Of a stretch of DNA of 64,000 bases, positions 10,077-64,000 are shown one piece after another. The number at the start of each line of letters is the position of its first letter. Within the stretch, counting starts at the first letter, position 1. Both the position numbers and the translations under genes were made by a program. The notes under the pieces were generated by a model that was given only the letters and a program-made list of their open reading frames with translations, was not told the origin of the DNA and searched no databases. The DNA is taken from assembly GCA_002840645.1 (NCBI GenBank), contig PHBO01000003.1:62001-126000 (forward strand), read 5' to 3'. Origin of the DNA: Candidatus Cloacimonetes bacterium HGW-Cloacimonetes-3. Its GTDB lineage: Bacteria; Cloacimonadota; Cloacimonadia; Cloacimonadales; Cloacimonadaceae.

Positions 10077-10505
10077 CTAAAGCATAGCGCACAAACGCTC
10101 ATAGCCCGTTATCGGCGCAAGTAAGCCTGCTTCTATTGCCGTTTTAACGCTTATACAGGGCAGTTCCTGCGCATATATCTCCGCTCTGGTGATAGTCTGC
10201 AAATTCACCCCCAAACTGCTTGCCATAGCGTGCATCAGCTTCATATACACATTGCGCCAGTTCAGATATTGCCCTTTGCGGCTTACCATTGCCGCGTAAT
10301 ACTTCAAATCTGTGGCATAGCTATCCGAGGGTTTTATCGCCTTTAAGTTATTGGCTATCAAGGTGAAACGCGTATTGCTACCCGATGCCTTGGGTATCGT
10401 GTGCCGCCTACACAGCAACCTATCCAAACCCGGATGATAGTAATATATCAAGCCGTCACACTTGCCAGAATACGCCTTTAGAATGTTCTTTAATACTACT
10501 TGCAT
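10077..10505 (-). CDS. Family A protein, copy 1 (unknown)
   Basis: 142 residues with Shine-Dalgarno GGAGGCAAC before the ATG. It aligns over its whole length with the genes at 15131-15583 and 46264-46707. Shared blocks: AYSGKCDGLIYY near the N-terminus, IPKASGSNTRFTLIANNLK, SYATDLKYYAAM, WRNVYMKLMHAM and a C-terminal SVKTAIEAGLL. No signal peptide, no membrane helix and no catalytic motif are visible. I do not recognise the family; the N-terminal GxxSGxxDxxxY pattern faintly recalls Bacteroidota proteins of the DUF6266 type, which is unverified. It faces outward at the left end of the island. Confidence 0.75.
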   Translation of the reverse strand: MQVVLKNILKAYSGKCDGLIYYYHPGLDRLLCRRHTIPKASGSNTRFTLIANNLKAIKPSDSYATDLKYYAAMVSRKGQYLNWRNVYMKLMHAMASSLGVNLQTITRAEIYAQELPCISVKTAIEAGLLAPITGYERLCAML

Positions 10506-10518
10506 GTTGCCTCCATTT

Positions 10519-10568
10519 TTTATTACTTCATCACTTCATCACTTCATCACATCATTACTTCATCACTG
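10519..10568. repeat. 8-base tandem repeat TTCATCAC
   Basis: Five to six imperfect units of TTCATCAC / ATCATTAC between the start of family A copy 1 and its upstream box. Similar units occur as GAAGTGAT inside the gene at 14240-14809 (about 14468-14495) and near 15041. All lie in the island. Confidence 0.7.
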
Positions 10569-10591
10569 TCTATATATATACGGGCTACGCG
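10569..10591 (-). promoter_or_regulatory. Family A upstream box, copy 1
   Basis: Read on the - strand this is CGCGTAGCCCGTATATATA plus one TA unit and GA. The same box, one TA shorter, is at 15068-15088 before family A copy 2. It ends 63 bases before the start codon here and 42 bases in copy 2. The TATATA part may be a -10 element; the CGCGTAGCCCG part may be an operator. The two boxes are inverted relative to each other and enclose the replication module. Confidence 0.55.
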
Positions 10592-10592
10592 T

Positions 10593-10662
10593 ATCTTGGA
10601 GTTCAAAGCGCCTCTGCTAATTACATATTTACAATATACTTAGGGCGCTTCGGACTTCAAGA
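10593..10662 (+). repeat. TTGGAGTTCAAA hairpin element, copy 1
   Basis: Arms 10593-10612 and 10643-10662 pair 19 of 20 positions on the + strand as RNA, including two G-U pairs and one A-C mismatch. The loop starts TCTGCTAATTACA. The outer arm TTGGAGTTCAAAGCGCC and the loop start are shared with copies at 10886-10952 and 14166-14240. Confidence 0.8.
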
Positions 10663-10678
10663 TAACCACCCAGACGCC

Positions 10679-10746
10679 TTTGAAGTCCGAACCGGCTTCA
10701 AGTTAAGTAATAATTGCGAACCATGACAGCCGGTTTGAACTCCAAA
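10679..10746 (-). repeat. TTGGAGTTCAAA hairpin element, variant with CCGG inner stem
   Basis: Read on the - strand, the left arm TTTGGAGTTCAAACCGGC (10729-10746) pairs with the right arm (10679-10696) at 17 of 18 positions with two G-U pairs. The outer arm is the same as in the other copies while the inner stem is CCGGC instead of GCGCC. Confidence 0.75.
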
Positions 10747-10854
10747 CGCTCTCCCTTTCTTTCATGGTTTACTGTTAGGTTGGGTCCCACAAGGACATCG
10801 CTTACGGCACAGGCGAAGCTCAGCACAGAGGGGGATGATGCGCAAATAGTTGTT

Positions 10855-10880
10855 GTAGGGGCGTTCGGCTGAACGCCCAA
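10855..10880. repeat. GGGCGTT palindrome, intergenic copy
   Basis: GGGGCGTTCGGCTGAACGCCC, with stem GGGGCGTTC / GAACGCCC(C) and loop GGCT. Identical in sequence to the copies that lie in frame inside the helicase and primase genes. Read on the - strand it would encode the same LGVQPNAPT peptide but no gene is supported here. Confidence 0.85.
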
Positions 10881-10885
10881 CCACA

Positions 10886-10952
10886 CTTGGAGTTCAAAGC
10901 GCCTCTGCTATTTGCAAATATACGAGAATCTTAGGGCGCTTTGGACTTCAAG
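10886..10952 (+). repeat. TTGGAGTTCAAA hairpin element, copy 2
   Basis: Arms 10886-10903 and 10935-10952 pair at all 18 positions in + strand RNA, two of them G-U. Same TCTGCTA loop start as copies 1 and 3. Confidence 0.8.
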
Positions 10953-10982
10953 GGTGACATGGTTCGCAGGCTGGAATCCAGT

Positions 10983-11105
10983 TCTTTTCCCTCTTTCCCT
11001 CTTTTCCTCTATGTTAGCCTTCTCTTCCCTCTTTTCCTCTATGTTAGCCTTCTTTTCCCTCTTTGTTAGCCTTCTCTTTCCTCTTTTCCTCTTTGTTAAT
11101 TCTTC
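10983..11105. repeat. Pyrimidine-rich tandem repeat, about 30-base unit
   Basis: Units of the type CTCTTTTCCTCTATGTTAGC followed by CTTCTCTTCC are repeated about four times with decay towards the right. The opposite strand is purine-rich and gives an apparent lysine/arginine/glutamate-rich reading frame, which I do not accept as a gene. Confidence 0.75.
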
Positions 11106-11124
11106 TTTTTTAATCCACCGCACA

Positions 11125-11223
11125 GGGTTAACAGGGTTAACGAGGTTAACCAGTTTCCTTATATATTATGCTCACTTTAATCTGAGAGCAATATATATAG
11201 ATTCTCGTTAACCACGTTAACCC
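11125..11223. repeat. Inverted repeat with arms made of tandem GGTTAAC units
   Basis: Left arm 11125-11144 and right arm 11204-11223 match at 18 of 20 positions; each arm contains two GGTTAAC units and a third follows the left arm. Inside lies a second AT-rich inverted pair (TATATATTATGCTC and GAGAGCAATATATATA). It lies just after the stop of the helicase gene on its strand and could end its transcript, although no U-run follows. Confidence 0.65.
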
Positions 11224-11241
11224 ATACCTATTTGATAGGTG

Positions 11242-12678
11242 TTATTCAATTAATCCTAAGCCTTTAATATTGCGTGCATTACCATGTCCAACCGCAATTT
11301 CATACCCCTCCGCTCTCAGTTCACTTGCCAAAGTTCTGGCATTACTGCTACGAAAGTTGTTTTCCTTACACCAGGTGTTGTAATTGGCAGTGAAGTCTTT
11401 CAAGGCAGTAGTGGCGTAATCAGCGATAATATACCGTTCCTCTATGAATTGCTTCAGGGAATCGCACTCATGCGCATACTCGTTCAGAGCGGTTTTCATG
11501 GATTCCGGTAGCAGCTTCATGCCTTCTTTCTGGTATAGCTTCCAGCCGTCCACAATCCATTTCAGGATGCCTGCCTTTTCACGTATTAACGTATCCTCAA
11601 AGCGTTCTATGCGTTCACTTTCCGGCACTTTATAGGCAAATGGCACCAGGCAGATACGGCGCATCATGCCGCCATCGTGCACATTGAAGAGAGGCTTGTG
11701 ATTGCTTCGTATCCACAGCTTGTGAGTGGGCATAAAGGGCGTAACGCTCTTGAAAACCACCTTGGCGGCTATCATATCACGGCTGCATAGTTGCTTGATA
11801 ATCATATCGTTATAGGTGGCACGCTCGGGGATTTCGTTGGAAGTGGCGAAGCGGATTCCGCGTAGATTTGCCATGTTTTCCAGTGCTAACCTCTGGTCTT
11901 GCACCTTGCTTTTTATCAGGATGGTGGAATCTATCTCTTGGTGGAAGCTGCCAAAGATGCGGTTCAGCACCTCAAAGAAGGTGGTTTTGCCGTTGGCACC
12001 GCTGCCATAAGCGAAGAACAGCTTTTCCTCCAATACCTTACCGCTAAGACTAAGCCCCACAGCCTTTTGCACAAAGCGAATAAGCTCCTCATCCGCGCAG
12101 AATATCTGGCGGAGGAAGGCTTCCCAGCTCGGGCAAGTCGCATCAGGGCTGTAAGCCACAGGGAAACGGCGGGTTAGGAACAGCGGACGGATGCGCACGG
12201 GGTCGTAAACAAGCTGGTTGGTATCGGTGTTGTAAACCGCATTCTCCAAGGCGCAGAGATGCTCGTGGCTGTCGCAATCATAGCTAAGCAAACTAAGCTC
12301 GTTTCGGCTTTCAAGGTGTTTCTTTATCTGGCTTAAAGACCGCTGATTGGCAAGCTTTTTGGCAATCTCTTTCAGATGGTAGTTGGATTGATTGGCGATT
12401 AGCTTGTTTCGCATATCTTCCAGCGCATCAGATAGTTGTTGCGCCTTGATGTCCGTGTTCCAATGCCTGCCGTCCCAGTGTAGCCAACGCTCTTCATCGC
12501 GTATGTAGCGGTGATTATCGCCGTAGTTGGCTATGAATATCGCGCTGGTGGTGGCATCAAAGCTGTCGTTGATATGCGCCGGCAAGGTAGGGGCGTTCGG
12601 CTGAACGCCCAATGTGGTAACGGGAGGGGGCGTTATGCCTAACGCCCCTACATTATTATCAATATTCATGTTACTCAT
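11242..12678 (-). CDS. P4-type phage/plasmid primase-helicase (D5 N-terminal plus SF3 helicase)
   Basis: 478 residues. Residues about 45-200 match the D5_N-type region of phage/plasmid replication proteins; the SF3 helicase follows with Walker A GSGANGKTT at 225-233 and later GIRFATSNEIPE, KQLCSRDMIAAK and PTHKLWIRSNHKP motifs. It should unwind DNA at a replication origin together with the primase encoded upstream, which it overlaps by ATGA. Oddity: residues 10-17 (VGALGITP) and 24-31 (GVQPNAPT) are encoded by two palindromic repeats inserted in frame. The start is the coupled ATG at 12678. No integrase is seen nearby. Confidence 0.9.
   Translation of the reverse strand: MSNMNIDNNVGALGITPPPVTTLGVQPNAPTLPAHINDSFDATTSAIFIANYGDNHRYIRDEERWLHWDGRHWNTDIKAQQLSDALEDMRNKLIANQSNYHLKEIAKKLANQRSLSQIKKHLESRNELSLLSYDCDSHEHLCALENAVYNTDTNQLVYDPVRIRPLFLTRRFPVAYSPDATCPSWEAFLRQIFCADEELIRFVQKAVGLSLSGKVLEEKLFFAYGSGANGKTTFFEVLNRIFGSFHQEIDSTILIKSKVQDQRLALENMANLRGIRFATSNEIPERATYNDMIIKQLCSRDMIAAKVVFKSVTPFMPTHKLWIRSNHKPLFNVHDGGMMRRICLVPFAYKVPESERIERFEDTLIREKAGILKWIVDGWKLYQKEGMKLLPESMKTALNEYAHECDSLKQFIEERYIIADYATTALKDFTANYNTWCKENNFRSSNARTLASELRAEGYEIAVGHGNARNIKGLGLIE
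12587..12610. repeat. GGGCGTT palindrome inside helicase gene (GVQPNAPT)
   Basis: Perfect stem GGGGCGTTC / GAACGCCC with loop GGCT. On the coding (-) strand it is read as GVQPNAPT, helicase residues 24-31. Identical to intergenic copy 10855-10880. Confidence 0.9.
12626..12651. repeat. GGGCGTT palindrome, loop variant, inside helicase gene (VGALGITP)
   Basis: Stem GGGGCGTTA / TAACGCCCC with loop TGCC. On the coding strand it gives VGALGITP, helicase residues 10-17. The same element is at 12952-12976 in the neighbouring gene, in the same frame. Confidence 0.9.
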
Positions 12679-12951
12679 ACTTTAACTCCATACTGCTCTG
12701 CTACATAGAACAATGAACCCAGCTTGATGGAACGGACGCTGTGGAAACTGCGCCAGTGCGCATCAAGGCTTCTTTGCGTGTCGTGGTAATTGGGATTGTT
12801 TAAGAACATATCCCACAAGGCTTTGCCCTGTTCGCCAAAACCGGCGTAGAGGGCTTGCCCTATCTTTATCCAATCACGGTAAACGATTGGGATTTTGGAC
12901 ATTGTAGATATAATTGCCTCCGCTTTGGCGTAGTCGTCCGTGGCGGAAGGA

Positions 12952-12976
12952 GAGGGCGTTATGCCTAACGCCCCTA
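12952..12976. repeat. GGGCGTT palindrome, loop variant, inside primase linker (VGALGITP)
   Basis: Stem GGGCGTTA / TAACGCCC with loop TGCC, read in frame on the - strand as VGALGITP. It matches 12626-12651 almost base for base. Confidence 0.9.
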
Positions 12977-13002
12977 CGGATGTGTTTTTAGGGTTGTTTA
13001 CG

Positions 13003-13026
13003 GTAGGGGCGTTCGGCTGAACGCCC
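13003..13026. repeat. GGGCGTT palindrome inside primase linker (GVQPNAPT)
   Basis: Stem GGGGCGTTC / GAACGCCC with loop GGCT, read on the - strand as GVQPNAPT. Same sequence and same frame as 12587-12610. Confidence 0.9.
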
Positions 13027-13205
13027 GATGTAGCAACGGGTTTGAGGTGATTGGTTTCGCGCGGAAAGGGAATCTCCATCACGCTGACCGCCTGTTTGTA
13101 GGTGACTGTTGCATCCAAAGGATGGCAATTCGGATTGATGAGCAAATTGGGGTCGTAAGTCATAAAACACGCCCTTGCCCAGTCCGATGTGGTATCGCAG
13201 ATGTG

Positions 13206-13772
13206 CTATAGCGCGTACTCTATCTGTAAGGCAAGGAAGGTGTAAACCCGCCTGTAGATTGCTTCGTCCACGATGGGCTTGGTGAACCTGGCTATCAGCT
13301 TCACGCCATCCACAGCGCTAAGAAACGCATAATGGATGTAAGGCATCTTACTGATGGCAAGCTCTTTAAGCGCTTCCGGATTGGGAACATGATCCAGATC
13401 AAAGATTTGGAACTGCGCTTTTTCCACATTCAGGTTGTTACGCTTCTTGTGCATCAGAGAACCGCTGAACCAGGGCAAAGAGGTTTTGGCGTTACGCTGT
13501 GCGTCCTTATCCGTCATTTTGCGCAGATTGGTGATGGCGCGTTTGAGGTCATAGCCCTCGTAATCGCCTTTGCGCATACAGTCTGCTACATATCCGATGT
13601 CTCTCACGGTGATGCTTTCGGGGTGTCGCACGCTACGCCCAACCGTGACGGGGTAGCGCATTATGTCGTATTGAAGGGGGTCTTCGGGGCAGGGAAGCTC
13701 CGAAGCGTTGTTGCAATAGGCGGAGGTATCATCCGACCGCGGACAATTGGTAGCTAAAGATATCATGGTCAA
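13206..13772 (-). pseudogene. N-terminal part of primase (BT4734/VirE-N-like), ended by in-frame TAG
   Basis: 188 residues up to a TAG codon. The conserved FQIFDLDH stretch and VDGVKLIARF correspond to the catalytic core of BT4734-type primase/virulence-associated E N-terminal domains found beside D5/P4 helicases. The domain is cut before its end; the missing part follows directly in the same frame after the stop, so a full protein of about 365 residues existed or is still made by read-through. The stop is one base change from CAG or TGG. The start ATG at 13772 lacks an obvious strong Shine-Dalgarno (a TTGACC precedes it). Confidence 0.75.
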
Positions 13773-14165
13773 TCCCTTAGGCGGTCTGCCTATCTAAATC
13801 GTTATTCCCACAAATGCCAGCCTAACTGACGCTAATACATAGTGTTAACACAAGGGAAAGGGAAAGCCCCAGCCCTATGGTGCAAAGATAGGAGGAATAG
13901 GTATTATGTCCAGTAGAATATGAGGTATTTTTGATGTTTTTGTAGCTTGTTTTTGTAGCTTGTTGTGGCAGTGAGAGTAAAAGATATGTGTGTATTATAG
14001 CATGTGTTTATGAAACTTATCTGCGCTTAGAAACATGATAGGTGAAGCCATCCTATTGCTTTGCACTTACTTGAAACTTTGAGCAATTGGAGTTCAATTT
14101 GGCTGTTTTATTTTGCGATTATTTCCTAATTTTTAGCCGGATTGGATTTCAATGGCGTGCGTGGG
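13773..14165. other. Island intergenic region between primase and unknown gene
   Basis: No gene is seen. It is AT-rich and contains a hairpin related to the TTGGAGTTCAAA elements at 14086-14153 and a short duplication TTTTTGTAGCTTGT (about 13932-13964). Promoters for the - strand primase operon should lie here but none is clear. Confidence 0.5.
14086..14153 (+). repeat. TTGGAGTTCAA hairpin element, diverged copy
   Basis: Arms 14086-14104 and 14135-14153. As + strand RNA all 19 positions pair, five of them as G-U or U-G; the opposite strand would have five A-C mismatches. The start ATTGGAGTTCAA links it to the other copies but the inner stem (TTTGGCT) differs. Confidence 0.75.
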
Positions 14166-14240
14166 GATTCTTGAAGTCCAAAGCGCCATAAGTAATTTGT
14201 ATATGTGTAATTAGCAGAGGCGCTTTGAACTCCAAGAATC
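14166..14240 (-). repeat. TTGGAGTTCAAA hairpin element, copy 3, at the end of the unknown gene
   Basis: On the - strand the arms (14219-14240 and 14166-14187) pair at all 22 positions with two G-U pairs; the loop start TCTGCTAATTACA equals copy 1. Its first base is the last base of the stop codon of the gene at 14240-14809, so it would form a hairpin at the 3' end of that mRNA. No U-run follows, so it may protect or mark the 3' end rather than terminate. Confidence 0.8.
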
Positions 14241-14809
14241 TATTGCTCCCAGCGCATTTGTTTCCCCTGAAAGAGATGGTGTTTTATGTAGGCTACCGCT
14301 TCGTGATGTCCATCCTTTTCGGCTTGGGCAAGCAGACGGCGGATAGCAGCGGATTGGCGGCGATAGGCAGCGCGGTCTTCATCGTGGAAGCATTTTATCC
14401 CACCGGTGGGGAGGGTAGTTTCTTTGATGTATTGGGTTAGGGATTGGATTTCATCTTCGATGGGGTTATGAAGTGATGAAGTGACGGAGTGATGATGAGA
14501 AGGGGTATTGGCTTTTTGGGCGATTAGCTGGTTAAGGCGTTTCTTCACGGCTTTCAGGGTGGCTTCATCGGTCATTTTTACGGGTGCAAGGTGGTAGATG
14601 GTTGCCATCGCTTCGGGCAAGGGAATAATCATCTGTAAGGCGGTTTCGAGCACGCTGCTATAGATGGGGGTGTTGGGGTATTGCATCAGGATGTTTAGTA
14701 GCTTTGTGCCTTCCCAATCGGGGTAGTTGTTTAGCAATTCTAATGCATTATTCGCAGACGAGACGTCTGCAACTCCGGGGTAGTTATTTAGCAATTCTGT
14801 AGCTGTCAT
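14240..14809 (-). CDS. Island protein of unknown function with an internal palindrome-flanked duplication
   Basis: 189 residues, start ATG at 14809 preceded by GGAGGAAGACA. No domain is recognised. The N-terminus contains ELLNNYP twice with GVADVSSANNAL between: a 22-base direct repeat with one mismatch flanks a palindrome (GCAGACG TCT CGTCTGC). The middle (SHHHSVTSSLHN) is coded by the same 8-base repeat seen near 10519. The C-terminus has a charged helix (RAAYRRQSAAIRRLLAQAEK) that looks like a coiled or DNA/RNA-binding helix. It is on the same strand as the primase-helicase operon and upstream of it; a role in that module is inferred from position only. Confidence 0.65.
   Translation of the reverse strand: MTATELLNNYPGVADVSSANNALELLNNYPDWEGTKLLNILMQYPNTPIYSSVLETALQMIIPLPEAMATIYHLAPVKMTDEATLKAVKKRLNQLIAQKANTPSHHHSVTSSLHNPIEDEIQSLTQYIKETTLPTGGIKCFHDEDRAAYRRQSAAIRRLLAQAEKDGHHEAVAYIKHHLFQGKQMRWEQ
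14728..14789. repeat. 22-base direct repeat flanking a GCAGACG palindrome
   Basis: On the coding (-) strand GAATTGCTAAATAACTACCC and GAATTGCTAAACAACTACCC (plus CG) enclose a short segment with the palindrome GCAGACG-TCT-CGTCTGC. The layout is that of a small palindromic element with a duplicated target, or of a tandem duplication with an insert. It stays in frame. Confidence 0.7.
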
Positions 14810-14880
14810 TGTCTTCCTCCAAGATAGGCTAAGTTATTGGGGACATAATGGCATAGTGGCATATATTGTCAAGAGATATT

Positions 14881-15036
14881 AGTGGAAAAGTGGAAGGGTG
14901 AAAGAGTGAAACAAGTGGAGAATTTCAGTTGCAGGGTAATAGATTATGGAATGATATATCACCTTTACAAAGCCTAAAAACAGGCAGTCAAACCATAAAT
15001 CGGGTTTCACTTTTCCACTCTTCCACTTTTCCACTT
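14881..15036. repeat. Inverted repeat with arms made of tandem GTGGAAA-type units
   Basis: Left arm 14881-14912 (units AGTGGAAA, AGTGGAAG, GGTGAAAG, AGTGAAAC) and right arm 15004-15036 are reverse complements apart from one gap and about two changes. The spacer of about 90 bases has no coding potential that I can support. Confidence 0.75.
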
Positions 15037-15067
15037 CTGTTCTTCATCACTTCTTTACCCCCCAATC

Positions 15068-15088
15068 CGCGTAGCCCGTATATATAGA
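15068..15088 (+). promoter_or_regulatory. Family A upstream box, copy 2
   Basis: CGCGTAGCCCGTATATATAG plus A, 42 bases before the ATG of family A copy 2. Same box on the opposite strand at 10569-10591. Possible -10 TATATA at 15079-15084 with a weak TTTACC -35 at 15054-15059 (19-base spacer). Confidence 0.55.
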
Positions 15089-15130
15089 GAGGGCATTCCT
15101 CTACTACTATCATGTCTATAGGAGGACAAA

Positions 15131-23890: not shown

Positions 23891-24702
23891 CTTTACCTGT
23901 TTATCCTATTTCATTCCATGTCTGTTTACGGTGCCAATATGTCAATAAAAAACTGCTCCGCTATGTTTCCGAGTTTCACCCCTAAGATGTCGCATTGTAA
24001 GCAAGGCAAATAGTAACACGGATTTAGCGGATGAAACCGATCATCACGGATTGTCGGATTCCAGTAAGATATCATAAACGTTGCTTCTCTTGTTAGAAAG
24101 CGCATAAACTACTGAGGTAGAGTATTTAACCAAAACATACCTATAACTACTTTAACCCGCAAATCGGCTATAATCCTTACAAAATCCGTTCAAAATCCGT
24201 TCTCATATCTCTCTTTTCCCTCTTTAAGCTCCATCTCTATTACACGCAGAAAACCAAATACCACCCTGCCACAATCCTGCCACGACCCTGCCGCAATGCG
24301 GCAGGGTCGTGGCAGGATCACCTATGTGTGGTATGCGAATTTCTGCGTGTAATAGAAATGGAGCAGAGGGGGCAGAAAAATGTGATATCAACGGATATAT
24401 CCGTGGAAAATGAGATCTATCAAAGTGGCTCGCCCTGTGTATGAGGATGGAATGAACTATTCTGATGAATTTGCTTTTGGATTTGTGTATTGCATTTGGA
24501 AGAGCAGTTTGCGATAAATTCATGGAGTTAAAATAACATTTCACCCGTTGCTCCAGAGTCCATTAATTAATGATACGCCCTTCCAAAGCATAAAACATTT
24601 TGCCTTAGCAACCGGTAACACCTCAAAATAATCTTAGTATTGCACCGCAAATTGCAACGTTTAACATCTCAATAGAAAATATGTGTCGATATAGGAGATT
24701 TC
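23891..24702. other. Long divergent intergenic region with a large hairpin element
   Basis: No gene is seen in 812 bases. The main structure is the nested inverted repeat at 24229-24363. A short duplication AAAATCCGTTC occurs at about 24180-24202. The region should contain promoters for the ABC operon on the left and the C25 protein on the right; none stands out. A Shine-Dalgarno TAGGAG lies just before 24703. Confidence 0.5.
24229..24363. repeat. Nested 135-base hairpin element with tandem-repeat arms
   Basis: Outer arms 24229-24252 and 24340-24363 match at 23 of 24 positions. A middle pair ATACCAC / GTGGTAT (24258-24264 and 24328-24334) and a perfect 21-bp inner stem (24274-24294 and 24298-24318, loop AAT) lie inside. 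The inner arms consist of repeated CCTGCCAC units. The whole piece can fold into one long hairpin and looks like a non-autonomous mobile element. Confidence 0.85.
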
Positions 24703-30993: not shown

Positions 30994-31213
30994 AGACCGA
31001 TGCCTCACGAGGTTCCTTGCGTGTAGTTAAAGTAGTTAATCAATTCTTATACAACATAATCAGCCGGATACCTGCGTAAGACAAGGGGTGTAGCGCATGT
31101 GCGATCGTCTTTTCCATTACAGTATCATTACAGATTTATTGCAGATTTTGTGGGGATTGAATCTGCAATGATACTGCAATAGAAGCAGGGAAGGTTTAAA
31201 TTACTCACAAAAG

Positions 31214-40060: not shown

Positions 40061-40116
40061 ATAAGTATCATCCATATCCCTGCCTTTCCCACCCAATAAC
40101 TGTTACTTGTTCCCTT

Positions 40117-40169
40117 CGTGCAGCTACCGTGTATCTTTCGTGATACGCATGATACACGGTAGCTGCACG
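40117..40169. repeat. Inverted repeat with perfect 19-bp arms
   Basis: Arms CGTGCAGCTACCGTGTATC (40117-40135) and its exact reverse complement (40151-40169) around a 15-base loop that contains a second GATAC, so an alternative shorter hairpin is possible. No U-run follows on either strand. Confidence 0.85.
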
Positions 40170-40492
40170 GTGGTTGGGAGCAGCGTTAACTGGGTGTGTA
40201 ACCGGGTTAACAGGCTTTTTTCCGACATTGCCTGTGTAAGTACCATGTCCCGATTTCCCCGATTCATCCATTTTTTGTCCTTGCTGCCATGTATGAATGA
40301 TAAGTGTATAACCTATATATCAACCGTATATTAAATACGTATGATAAATGGAAGAAACACATGTGCAGGCAAGGTCGGAAAATGGACTTTCCTGATTTTA
40401 GCTGACTGCCAAAAGGTTGGTGTTAGATTTCTGCTTGACGCAAATTAAAGGAAGAATGAAAGGTATCGCAAAGATTAGTAATGGAGATCATC

Positions 40493-46794: not shown

Positions 46795-46839
46795 CATTTA
46801 TTTTTGCTTTTCTGCATTTTCCTTGCTTTTCGCTACCGA

Positions 46840-46909
46840 ATCGCACCAAAGTTCATCGGGCATTGAACGGGCTAAAGCCCGATGAACACCCGATGAACCC
46901 CGGTGCGAT
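46840..46909. repeat. Inverted repeat with tandem CCCGATGAAC units
   Basis: Arms 46840-46860 and 46889-46909 match at 18 of 21 positions; the three differing positions pair as U-G on the - strand RNA. Inside, GTTCATCGGGC and GCCCGATGAAC form a shorter perfect 11-bp stem, because the right arm carries the unit CCCGATGAAC twice. Confidence 0.75.
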
Positions 46910-47096
46910 CTGCCTTCGGACAGCATGGAAGGAGAGCGTAGCATTCCATGTAGCGCAGCATGCCAATGCTGCGAAAGGAAGAGGCGATCAAGATGAAAGA
47001 AGAGGATAGTTGTTTGGCTTTATACATGTCGCTCTAATAGCTCCGCATATCCCCCAAGCTAATCCGCGACATATTTATAGTTAATCAACGGTCTGA

Positions 47097-61973: not shown

Positions 61974-63140
61974 ATGATGTATCTTGAACCTTTACAAATG
62001 CCGGAGAATGTCGATTTTGACAAAGCGTCCTATTCACGCAACTACGGCAAATTTGAAATCGGTCCTCTGGAACCGGGATTTGGTACCACGCTGGGTAACA
62101 CTCTGCGCAGGGTACTGCTATCCTCCATCCAGGGTGCTGCGGTTCGTTTCATTCGGATTGAAGGACTGCATCACGAATTCTTGCCTATCCCGGGTACAAA
62201 CTCAGATTATATTGATCTGATCTTGCGGATAAAGCAACTTGTGATTCTCTCCAATTCTGTGGAAGAAATCCCTATCGTTCTGGAACACAAGGGTAAAGGT
62301 TTAATCACCGCATCCCTGATCCAGGAAAACGCCAACATCAAAATCATCAATAAAGACCTTTACCTCCTTGAGGTGGTGGAAGATATTGATTTTAAGATCG
62401 AAATGATTGTTGGCATTGGTAGAGGCTATGTGTCCTCAGACCGTCAGAATCCAGAAGGTAAAGCTGTCGGCTTTATTCCTATCGATTCCATATATTCGCC
62501 CATTCTGAAGGTTAACTTTAGTGTTACCCATCAACGGGTGAAAGAAAGAATGAACTTCGACCGCCTAATCCTGGAAATCCATTCCAATGGTGCGATTGAG
62601 CCACAAATTGCCTTGTTCTTGGCTGCTAAGATTCTCAAAGATATGGCAGCAAAGATATCCTTGTTCGAAACAGAACCGGAATATATACGCGATATTGAGC
62701 TTGATCCGGACTTGGAAGAAAAGGAACGCATTCTCCGCATGAGTGTTCGCGAGATCGAACTTACAGTTCGTGCCGCAAATTGTCTCTCCGGAGCGAAAAT
62801 TGAAACAATAGGCGAACTCGTATCCAAATCCGAGGCAGAAATGCTGAAGTTCAGAAACTTCGGTAAGAAATCCCTCGAAGAGATCGTCCTTAAACTAAAA
62901 AAATATGATCTGGATCTTGGTATGGATGTAGAAGGTATCTACCGGAAGATCAGAGAAGCCAGAAGCCGTGGGGTTCTTCCTCCTGAAGACAAGGCAGCAC
63001 CTGCACCTGAAAAGGTGAAAGCTGTTGCACAGGAAGCCGCTCCTATGGAAACTGAAGATTCTGAGCCGGTTGCCACATCCACACCCCGTAAACCCATTCC
63101 AGCCCCTAAAAAGAAGGTGAAAAATGCGACACAGACTTGA
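61974..63140 (+). CDS. rpoA: RNA polymerase alpha subunit with C-terminal extension
   Basis: 388 residues from ATG 61974; AAGGAG lies five bases upstream and the open frame further upstream overlaps rpsD and is not expected to be used. The N-terminal dimerisation domain (GPLEPGFGTTLGNTLRRVLL) and alpha-CTD (ELTVRAANCLSGAKIETIGE, FGKKSLEEIVLKL) are intact. After the CTD (about residue 335) come about 50 residues rich in alanine, proline, glutamate and lysine, which are not part of the usual protein. Its end overlaps rplQ by 17 bases. Confidence 0.96.
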   Translation: MMYLEPLQMPENVDFDKASYSRNYGKFEIGPLEPGFGTTLGNTLRRVLLSSIQGAAVRFIRIEGLHHEFLPIPGTNSDYIDLILRIKQLVILSNSVEEIPIVLEHKGKGLITASLIQENANIKIINKDLYLLEVVEDIDFKIEMIVGIGRGYVSSDRQNPEGKAVGFIPIDSIYSPILKVNFSVTHQRVKERMNFDRLILEIHSNGAIEPQIALFLAAKILKDMAAKISLFETEPEYIRDIELDPDLEEKERILRMSVREIELTVRAANCLSGAKIETIGELVSKSEAEMLKFRNFGKKSLEEIVLKLKKYDLDLGMDVEGIYRKIREARSRGVLPPEDKAAPAPEKVKAVAQEAAPMETEDSEPVATSTPRKPIPAPKKKVKNATQT

Positions 63141-63531
63141 AGGTAGAAAATTCGGCCGTGAAATGGATGCCAGACGCCTGATGATGAGAAACCTCGTCAA
63201 ATCTATGGTAGAACACGGACAGCTTAACACAACCCTTGCCAAAGCCAAAGAAATGAGAGGACATGTTGATCGTGTTATCACTTATGGAAAGGCTAACACT
63301 GTCCATGCCAGAAGATTAGCATATAGTGTGCTTGGCGATCGCGCCTTGGTTAAGAAGCTGTTTGATGAAATTGCCCCGGCATTCCAGGGACGTAACGGTG
63401 GTTACACCCGTGTACTGAAAGCCGGTTTCCGTAAAGGCGATTCCGCTCCTATGGCAATTATCCAGTTCGTGGAAGAATCTACGATTAAACCCAAAAAAGA
63501 CGCCATAAAAGCGAAAGACCTGAATAAGTAA
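63124..63531 (+). CDS. rplQ: Ribosomal protein L17
   Basis: 135 residues, MRHRLEGRKFGREMDARRLM, TTLAKAKEMRGHVDRVITYG and the C-terminal KPKKDAIKAKDLNK. Final gene of the supercluster; starts 17 bases inside rpoA, with AAGAAGGTGAAAA as a weak Shine-Dalgarno. Confidence 0.97.
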   Translation: MRHRLEGRKFGREMDARRLMMRNLVKSMVEHGQLNTTLAKAKEMRGHVDRVITYGKANTVHARRLAYSVLGDRALVKKLFDEIAPAFQGRNGGYTRVLKAGFRKGDSAPMAIIQFVEESTIKPKKDAIKAKDLNK

Positions 63532-63550
63532 ATCTATCGCTTCATATAGT

Positions 63551-63582
63551 AAAAGCGGGAAGACATCTTCCCGCTTTTTTAC
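63551..63582 (+). terminator. Terminator of the S10-spc-alpha supercluster
   Basis: Stem AAAAGCGGGAAG / CTTCCCGCTTTT with loop ACAT, followed by TT. Twenty bases after the rplQ stop. The A-rich side also makes it work for the - strand mltG gene. Confidence 0.93.
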
Positions 63583-63754
63583 ATGCATTCAATAAACGTG
63601 GGTATTCCTGTACTTGCAAAACAGATTTCTGGTCTGTTGAGCCTCTCCTGCCATCCTGGTAAGTACCATGCAACCATTACAGTAACAGCATTTCAGAAAT
63701 CCTTAACATCCCTGTTGGCACCAAACTTCAACCATGCTGCTATCTTTAGTCTAG

Positions 63755-63815
63755 CCATAACAATTCCCTAACGATTCCCTAACGCCGTTAGGGAATCGTT
63801 AGGGAATTGTTATGG
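63755..63815. repeat. 61-base perfect palindrome with tandem ATTCCCTAACG arms
   Basis: Arms 63755-63784 and 63786-63815 are exact reverse complements, 30 bases each, around a single C. Each arm contains ATTCCCTAACG twice. No target duplication is visible. Such a perfect palindrome is normally unstable, so it is recent or selected. Confidence 0.93.
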
Positions 63816-63879
63816 AAGTATTAGAGAAACAAGCAAGGGCAGTGTGGGATCTAAGAAGGTGGGAGTGAGGTGATGATTC

Positions 63880-64000
63880 TTAATTGATGTGTTTTAGATA
63901 TTGCCTTTGCTTTCGTAGATGCTCTTCGTAACTGCGGGAGAAGATGTTCTTCCCTTTGCGGTCGGCAAAGAAATACAGGTAAGAGCTATACTCCGGGTTC
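63880..64000 (-). CDS. mltG: C-terminus of endolytic murein transglycosylase MltG (partial)
   Basis: 39 residues to a TAA at 63880-63882, open to the right edge on the - strand. The sequence NPEYSSYLYFFADRKGKNIF followed by SRSYEEHLRK matches the YlYFVAdgkGgHvFs..yeeH end of MltG (YceG). MltG cuts new glycan strands at the inner membrane. Only this tail is visible, hence moderate certainty. Confidence 0.75.
   Translation of the reverse strand, partial: NPEYSSYLYFFADRKGKNIFSRSYEEHLRKQRQYLKHIN

Follow-up and report, generated by a model that had tools for sequence, protein, structure and literature searches.

How a long perfect palindrome persists between two bacterial genes, and whether it serves a function there, is the question raised by the end of the window, i.e., the analysed stretch of 64,000 nucleotides from Candidatus Cloacimonetes bacterium HGW-Cloacimonetes-3. 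A sequence-only reading had described a perfect 61-base palindrome at this place, and this holds, as the two 30-nt arms are exact complements around C63785; the persistence of a long perfect palindrome at 63755-63815 is likewise confirmed. The features of the locus are as follows.

63755..63815, no strand: perfect palindrome core with 30-bp arms around C63785
63722..63848 (centre ±63), no strand: whole element of ~127 bp, delimited by column conservation among 28 copies
63729..63783, minus strand: left arm, the same type of 11-bp units in inverted order (our interpretation)
63787..63841, plus strand: right arm, 11-bp units GTTAGGGAATC, GTTAGGGAATT, GTTATGGAAGT, ATTAGAGAAAC and AAGCAAGGGCA
63843..63851, plus strand: TGTGGGATC, located at +58 from the centre and identical with the initial 9 nt of the left end of an insertion sequence (IS)
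63124..63531, plus strand: left neighbour rplQ (PF01196), profile match
63880..64875, minus strand, reaching beyond the window end: right neighbour, a YceG-like gene (PF02618), profile match

The right arm was divided into five units whose likeness decreases outward, with the division being our interpretation. Outside the core, the symmetry of column conservation among the 28 copies extends to about ±63, C/G maxima occur at ±41, ±52 and ±63, and a further C/G maximum at 74 is strong on the right (17/23) and weak on the left side (13/26); within the core, positions ±8 and ±19 are invariant C/G across copies and ±30 is mostly C/G. From the centre outward the consensus right arm consists of GTTAGGGAATY, GTTAGGGAATT, GTTATGGAAGC, ATTAGAGAAAC and AAGCAAGGGCA, which we read as one degenerate 11-bp unit that is inverted in the left arm, so that two head-to-head arrays would result. 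In a gapless alignment of 27 rows (27 of the 28 full copies, with L025 excluded), changes on both sides were identified in 9 of 29 arm pairs, and arm covariation amounted to 0.144 as compared to 0.095 after shuffling, whereby none of 500 shuffles was as high; as the alignment rows are related, this documents joint change of the arms but not its cause. Among the arm mismatches, 16 G·T stand against 10 A·C for distances of 3-27 from the centre, and 3 G·T against 9 A·C at distance 2, with no clear G·U or RNA-strand bias. Covariation of the arms lacking a clear G·U bias points to DNA rather than RNA as the level at which the element matters.

The search of the source genome (2.675 Mb, 32 contigs) with an 81-nt query yielded 62 match rows over the two strands; their reduction left 30 element sites and two chance places of 14-16 nt. 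Twenty-eight sites are full and two are truncated by contig ends (L022 and L023, the end of G000:C31 and the start of G000:C3); here the contigs stop inside the element within an expanded 11-mer run, hence longer arrays may exist that the assembly did not close. At none of the 30 sites was an ORF called across the element core, and at three (L002, L023, L037) a called ORF enters one outer arm by ~30 nt. The palindrome belongs to a dispersed intergenic DNA element in which a degenerate 11-bp unit is repeated in two head-to-head arrays. A 22-nt pattern of the family gave no match among the GTDB contigs, a set from which the source genome itself is possibly absent. The occurrence of the same element at 30 sites excludes a chance origin of the palindrome, and an assembly artefact is very unlikely, as copies with different yet matching arms are present elsewhere in the genome and related palindromes in other genomes. 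The explanation by a perfect palindrome that arose by chance or recently, or by an assembly artefact, and that is kept owing to missing SbcCD, finds support in SbcD being undetected in the source genome, but the 30 sites, the covarying arms and the relatives in other species refute it as the main explanation and leave it next to no probability. The recent origin that had been proposed for the palindrome is not supported either, as the class occurs widely in the genus and also outside it, in further genera.

A function at the RNA level, i.e., a hairpin serving as terminator or mRNA stabiliser at gene ends, was considered next to the DNA-level reading. As single-stranded DNA the 127-nt element was computed to fold with -36.5 kcal/mol (shuffles -10.7 ± 2.7, z = -9.6, 0/200 equal), and a fold of such stability, albeit computed as DNA, would suit this explanation, as would the terminator-like stem at 63764-63806 that a lax scan identified on both strands (2 found, 0.5 expected), the true terminators adjoined by distant relatives of the IS, and the lean of the whole class to convergent sites (25 convergent, 14 divergent, 40 codirectional). 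Opposed to this, a real T-run is absent after the full stem, rplQ possesses a terminator-like hairpin of its own ahead of the element (at about 63552-63580, by eye), the mismatches lack a clear G·U preference, and none of 13 weak Rfam matches within 62000-64000 reaches the gathering score. Moreover, for the 21 copies of the 63785-type family with both neighbours called, neighbour orientation is as random (5 convergent, 5 divergent, 11 codirectional). We hence regard an RNA-level hairpin as improbable, and assignment to the intrinsic terminators was rejected given the absent T-run and this neighbour orientation. The same counts bear on the suggested function between two convergent operons: rplQ and the YceG-like gene are indeed convergent at the window copy, but convergent neighbours do not prevail in the family, and a function specific to convergent genes is not supported. 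In the 11 codirectional copies, the orientation of the element relative to transcription was observed to be split 10 to 1.

The lack of SbcCD, which had been offered as a further reason for persistence, stands in part. No match to SbcD (TIGR00619) was obtained in the source genome at E ≤ 0.001, with the control search giving matches in 13 of 14 genomes, above cut-off in 8. Among 60 genomes (the source genome included) SbcD is above cut-off in 10, none of them among the eight of the genus, while any match at E ≤ 0.001 was found in 42 of 60 overall and 3 of 8 in the genus, these being mostly weak and partial. SbcC is represented in the source genome by one weak partial match far under the cut-off, which only one of 14 controls passed. 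According to the accessible part of PMC4245961, the lower limit for hairpin cleavage by SbcCD in vitro is a palindrome of 20-36 bp, hence the 61-bp palindrome could be a substrate. However, three family members (G016, G027, G033) possess SbcD above cut-off and nevertheless matches to the covariance model of the element, whereas in G018 and G030 SbcD is present and model matches are absent. A link between SbcD loss and element presence is therefore not clean across genomes and was rejected; given the elements in the three SbcD-bearing family members, loss of SbcD may allow perfect arms to exist yet does not account for the class.

With the covariance model, matches were obtained in 7 of 8 genomes of the genus, the source genome included (E ≤ 1), and under stricter filters in 18 of 49 genomes of the family (E ≤ 0.001). 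The congener G007 gave at least 79 model matches, corresponding to at least 44 sites (150 of 1468 candidates scored), most of them ~107 or ~118 long, a difference of one unit. Among 40 loci of G007 and G002 most are inverted 11-mer arrays with less perfect arms, and at a few of these loci the script picked another hairpin instead. Repeat families of the source contig and of G007 correspond by eye, e.g., GTTAGGGAATT with GTTACGGAAGT and TTAATCAAGCG in both, next to others. A model-free scan, scoring palindromic matches within ±60 plus half of the lag-11 identities, gave at threshold 50 four matches in 100 kb of G010, one in 40 kb of G025 and 18 in 180 kb of G015, and no element in 80 kb of the family member G017; pieces of five order-level outgroup genomes (333.5 kb) gave 13 matches as compared to 4 in the controls, none of the 13 being a clear 11-mer array by eye. 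Elements picked by symmetry alone showed a lag-11 identity of 0.41-0.54 and a lag-22 identity of 0.32-0.45, with 0.19-0.32 at the other lags tested; as these elements retain the lag-11 signal, the 11-bp period is not produced by the scan score. Purines make up more than half of the right arm in 72 of 80 elements, hence a pyrimidine-centre-purine polarity is common to most groups.

Placement of the elements along the chromosome was examined with the scan in contiguous stretches, namely the 324-kb source contig C28 that contains the window, two stretches of G007 with 400 kb each and 180 kb of G015, which represents another genus; matches within 500 bp of each other were merged into one element, and thresholds were picked after the controls had been seen. 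In the window itself, the spaced set includes four further palindromes.

24256..24336 (centre 24296 ±40), no strand: palindrome with perfect 22-bp arms at 24274-24318
31108..31188 (centre 31148 ±40), no strand: palindrome from the scan
40103..40183 (centre 40143 ±40), no strand: palindrome from the scan
46834..46914 (centre 46874 ±40), no strand: palindrome from the scan

A weak AT-rich palindrome at 40326 lies 183 bp from the strong one at 40143 and was counted together with it as one. Other inverted repeats, of the TTGGAGTTCAAAGCGCC and GGGCGTTATGCCTAACGCCC types, were seen at 10500-15100 of the window, which falls into a 25-kb gap without a called 11-bp-lattice palindrome.

At score ≥50, C28 yielded 28 matches and its Markov control none. 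At threshold 52, 24 elements were identified in the source contig, 18 and 22 in the G007 stretches and 16 in G015, of which 76 of 80 are intergenic; first-order Markov controls gave zero in all four stretches (three replicates each). The smallest gaps at this threshold are 5220 bp in the source contig, 10,554 and 1532 bp in G007 and 5198 bp in G015. For the source contig, no gap below 4 kb was observed at threshold 50 (27 elements, minimum gap 5220 bp, 7.4 expected) or at threshold 48 (30 elements, minimum gap 4985 bp, 9.1 expected), the deficit at threshold 48 being matched by none of 5000 simulations, and at threshold 46 six such gaps stand against 12.9 expected; nulls restricted to intergenic positions agree with this deficit. 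For the 16 elements of G015 at threshold 52, an intergenic null expects 5.3 gaps below 5 kb and none was found. When elements were placed at random intergenic positions, a coefficient of variation (CV) of the gaps as low as observed occurred in 0.00015 (source contig), 0.062 and 0.00005 (G007) and 0.0034 (G015) of the simulations, and a count of gaps below 5 kb as low as observed in 0, 0.0045 and 0.0018, and 0.00005 of 20,000 simulations, respectively.

The signal in G007 is of a more mixed nature. No two of its at least 44 covariance-model sites are closer than 11.7 kb, but the gap CV of the 44 sites is not significant (1.11 versus 0.97, with 0.15 of the simulations as high), and the spacing claim rests on the minimum-gap and cross-group tests, not on this CV. 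The most regular piece (283.8-388.9 kb), the final element of which is doubtful, shows gaps of 12.1, 11.7, 13.4, 13.3, 13.9, 16.1, 13.9 and 10.6 kb; gaps in the rest of the first stretch reach 62.7 kb, and the second stretch includes one pair 1.5 kb apart. Gaps below 4 kb in the two stretches were as few in 0.037 and 0.041 (threshold 52), 0.069 and 0.047 (threshold 50) and 0.22 and 0.095 (threshold 54) of the simulations, and at thresholds 46-48, where control matches are frequent, the second stretch showed no short-gap deficit. Across thresholds 46-54 the spacing signal is hence strong in the source contig and G015 and weaker in G007.

Core clustering on C28 gave about 10 groups, three of which are single elements and one of which fuses two kinds separated by eye. 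When each group was shifted independently, the source contig was found to hold no cross-group pair below 5 kb where 9.3 are expected (0/5000 shifts as low), the two G007 stretches 0 versus 2.6 (0.046) and 2 versus 5.1 (0.071, the count including one probably false match), and the three stretches taken together 2 versus 17.0 (0/5000). In the stretches examined, the elements therefore stay kilobases apart irrespective of their sequence group, and the same class with similar spacing is present in stretches of the congener, for which some tests give a weaker signal, and in a stretch of a second genus of the family.

One way to obtain such a pattern is selection that removes closely placed palindromes, e.g., owing to replication block or deletions, without any mechanism of placement. 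The few or absent short gaps in all four stretches at thresholds 50-52, independent of group, are in line with this explanation. Problems caused by hairpins are, however, usually local, in the range of tens to hundreds of bases, which makes a reach of 5-10 kb hard to explain, and in G007 and G015 many gap lengths concentrate near a single value, which goes beyond mere avoidance of short gaps; removal by selection is thus judged unlikely.

A stronger alternative concerns mobile elements, and element positions were compared between species. Among 63 ortholog-like genes shared by the source contig and 800 kb of G007, 12 adjoin an element of the source contig, and 2 of these 12 also adjoin an element of G007 as compared to 5 of the 51 others (p = 0.40), hence orthologous positions are not supported by this comparison; an earlier small comparison of 30 source loci with 40 loci of G007 and G002 had revealed, by reading, two cases of same-side neighbours, L004/L186 and L009/L155. 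Positions therefore change whereas the spacing is kept. Such behaviour is expected of mobile elements and speaks against a chromosome-architecture role, so that selfish palindromic miniature elements, of several families, spread in trans and excluding each other's insertion across families, with the spacing as a trace thereof, account for the data nearly as well as the architecture role does; we hold this to be a serious possibility, though one somewhat short of even. The dispersed, multi-copy and intergenic occurrence, the unconserved positions, the families common to species (by eye) and the whole-unit length variation (~107 versus 118) are in line with it. On the other side, no transposase was found beside the 63785-type family, no target duplication or empty site was found, and exclusion across unlike 11-mers requires a common machinery.

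Known systems were compared in this regard. According to the accessible parts of the sources, REPs are palindromes of 20-40 bp that often carry a GTAG or CGTC tag (PMC3733652), and serve as landing sites for the IS3-family elements IS1397, ISKpn1 and ISPsy8 (PMC1525189). The palindromes studied here resemble REPs, PUs and BIMEs in being intergenic, multi-copy and used as IS landing sites, but differ in a size of ~127 bp, the iterated 11-bp units and a kilobase spacing across unlike groups. Neither GTAG nor CGTC is present in the element consensus of the 27-copy alignment, and none of the six Y1_Tnp matches of the source genome (2.6-3.3 kb inspected at each) shows a palindrome of the 63785-type family, so membership in the REP/REPIN/RAYT systems was rejected: a repeated intergenic palindrome is present, whereas size, tag and Y1 transposase do not agree. 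At two of the six Y1-transposase-like matches (L122, L123), palindromes of other groups occur within ~0.7 kb, which chance could explain given the density of palindromes. MITEs are short, dispersed, symmetric, non-coding inverted-repeat elements, and the element is likewise short, dispersed, symmetric and without coding capacity. Its boundaries are symmetric as well, but the symmetry peaks at the centre and declines towards the ends, and no matching transposon ends, target duplications or empty sites were seen.

Independent information on how the palindrome may be perceived in the cell came from the IS. The same left end is present at 8 contig ends of the source genome, and the right end at nine of the 40 contig ends examined out of 64. 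The coding part of the IS copy of the source genome is unassembled, and a whole relative in G007 encodes OrfA and OrfB of IS3 type, with rve above its cut-off and the HTH_Tnp_1 match of OrfA slightly under its cut-off; the IS is assigned to the IS3 family, which is defined by OrfA/OrfB with an rve core, imperfect terminal inverted repeats and a 3-4 bp target duplication. Three nucleotides are common to the left flank and one of the nine right flanks for 6 of 8 left flanks (~1.1 expected, an estimate). In 8 of 8 cases the left end faces a palindrome, seven of the 63785-type family and one of another group, with the first IS base at +58 (5 copies), +47 (2) or +69 (1) from the palindrome centre, i.e., all offsets are 3 mod 11 and thus follow the 11-bp lattice; several of the +58 sites have flanking sequence in common and are hence not fully independent. 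A relative in G001 is likewise located at +58, and that in G007 at +45.5, out of this phase. The nine right-end flanks (~220 nt each) contain no 11-bp-lattice element, and one of them holds a terminator-like hairpin with 17-bp arms ~115 nt away. At +58, the place occupied by the IS in five other copies, the window copy has TGTGGGATC, which is also found there in L005 and L024 and in partial form in L012; TGTGGGATC at 63843..63851 may have been left as a footprint by an IS since lost, or may reflect a target preference.

Among named relatives of the IS, the nearest is in a Cloacimonetes assembly. Distant relatives were looked at in eight of 12 loci and in 10 of the 40 records listed out of 810 matching plasmid records, and the left end could be placed in 17 of them, L315 not being judgeable. 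In 13 of the 17 (L200-L205, L314, L316, L318, L319, L320, L322, L323) the left end directly follows an intrinsic-terminator hairpin, as judged by reading; in L199, L206, L317 and L321 no terminator hairpin precedes it. The end was placed by script in 13 loci, while four (L318, L320-L322) were judged by eye, and in L200, which has two left-end motifs, the outer one was used. Of the script-placed ends, 8 fall into the most stable 2% and 9 into the most stable 5% of windows of their own locus, whereby L199 belongs to these nine yet is not counted as a terminator, and L200 and L319, both counted as terminators, lie at 9% and 11%. The hosts include Vibrio, Alteromonas, Nitrincola, Pontibacter, Marinobacter, Comamonas and Flavobacterium, among others, with the left end inward. 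As the Cloacimonas palindrome has a hairpin but no sequence in common with a Vibrio terminator, the palindrome is likely, though not certainly, seen as a hairpin in the cell. Like IS1397, ISKpn1 and ISPsy8, this IS3-family element selects palindromic repeats; ISPsy8, according to the accessible part of PMC1525189, inserts at the symmetry axis of the predicted REP hairpin, whereas the IS studied here lands outside the core stem (+47, +58, +69) with its left end inward, and its distant relatives beside terminators land likewise outside the stem.

Taken together, the many long intergenic palindromes of 11-base units suggest a DNA element that either acts at the scale of the chromosome or spreads in an unusual manner. 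We infer that the element acts as DNA, via a helix face or a hairpin. The 11-bp step would place all units on about the same helix face, and the inverted arrangement would create a two-fold-symmetric site able to extrude as hairpin or cruciform, although strong cruciform extrusion cannot be general, as the copies of the congener are less symmetric. The candidate role favoured for the spaced palindromes, plausible from their sequence and placement if not yet probable, is that of a DNA-level chromosome-architecture site occurring roughly once per 5-15 kb, for example as a supercoil sink, as a pin for plectonemes or as an array where a structural protein docks, whereby the unlike sequence groups speak against a single sequence-specific binding protein. 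Arm identity would be preserved by arm-to-arm copying or by selection, loss of SbcCD would allow perfect copies to persist, and the IS3-family element would use the palindrome sites as a safe landing place. More tentatively, the evenly placed 11-bp-lattice palindromes may form a ruler whose sequences are replaced by several families while its spacing is kept at a value particular to the species (typically about 6-8 kb in one genus and 10-17 kb in another species), each palindrome marking one putative topological or structural unit and the IS3 element reading the lattice or the hairpin to locate a safe landing place.

Chromosome-organising repeats such as matS, Chi and gyrase-binding BIMEs are, like the palindromes, chromosome-wide DNA sites, but we know of none in which long palindromes of several families form one set with a kilobase minimum spacing. 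Within the open-access literature no report was found of the element repeat, its 11-bp head-to-head lattice, its spacing and cross-group exclusion, the phase-locked IS, or a terminator-directed IS of such kind. Dispersed intergenic palindromes (REP, BIME) and their use by IS elements are already known, as the accessible part of PMC1525189 documents. A functional spacing would make chromosome domains of a little-studied bacterial phylum visible in the sequence, and the determinants of domain size would become testable by sequence; if it is only the trace of insertion exclusion, it would still document exclusion between unlike repeat groups. A separate gain is a lineage of the IS3 family that seems to target a hairpin or helical lattice, not a sequence.
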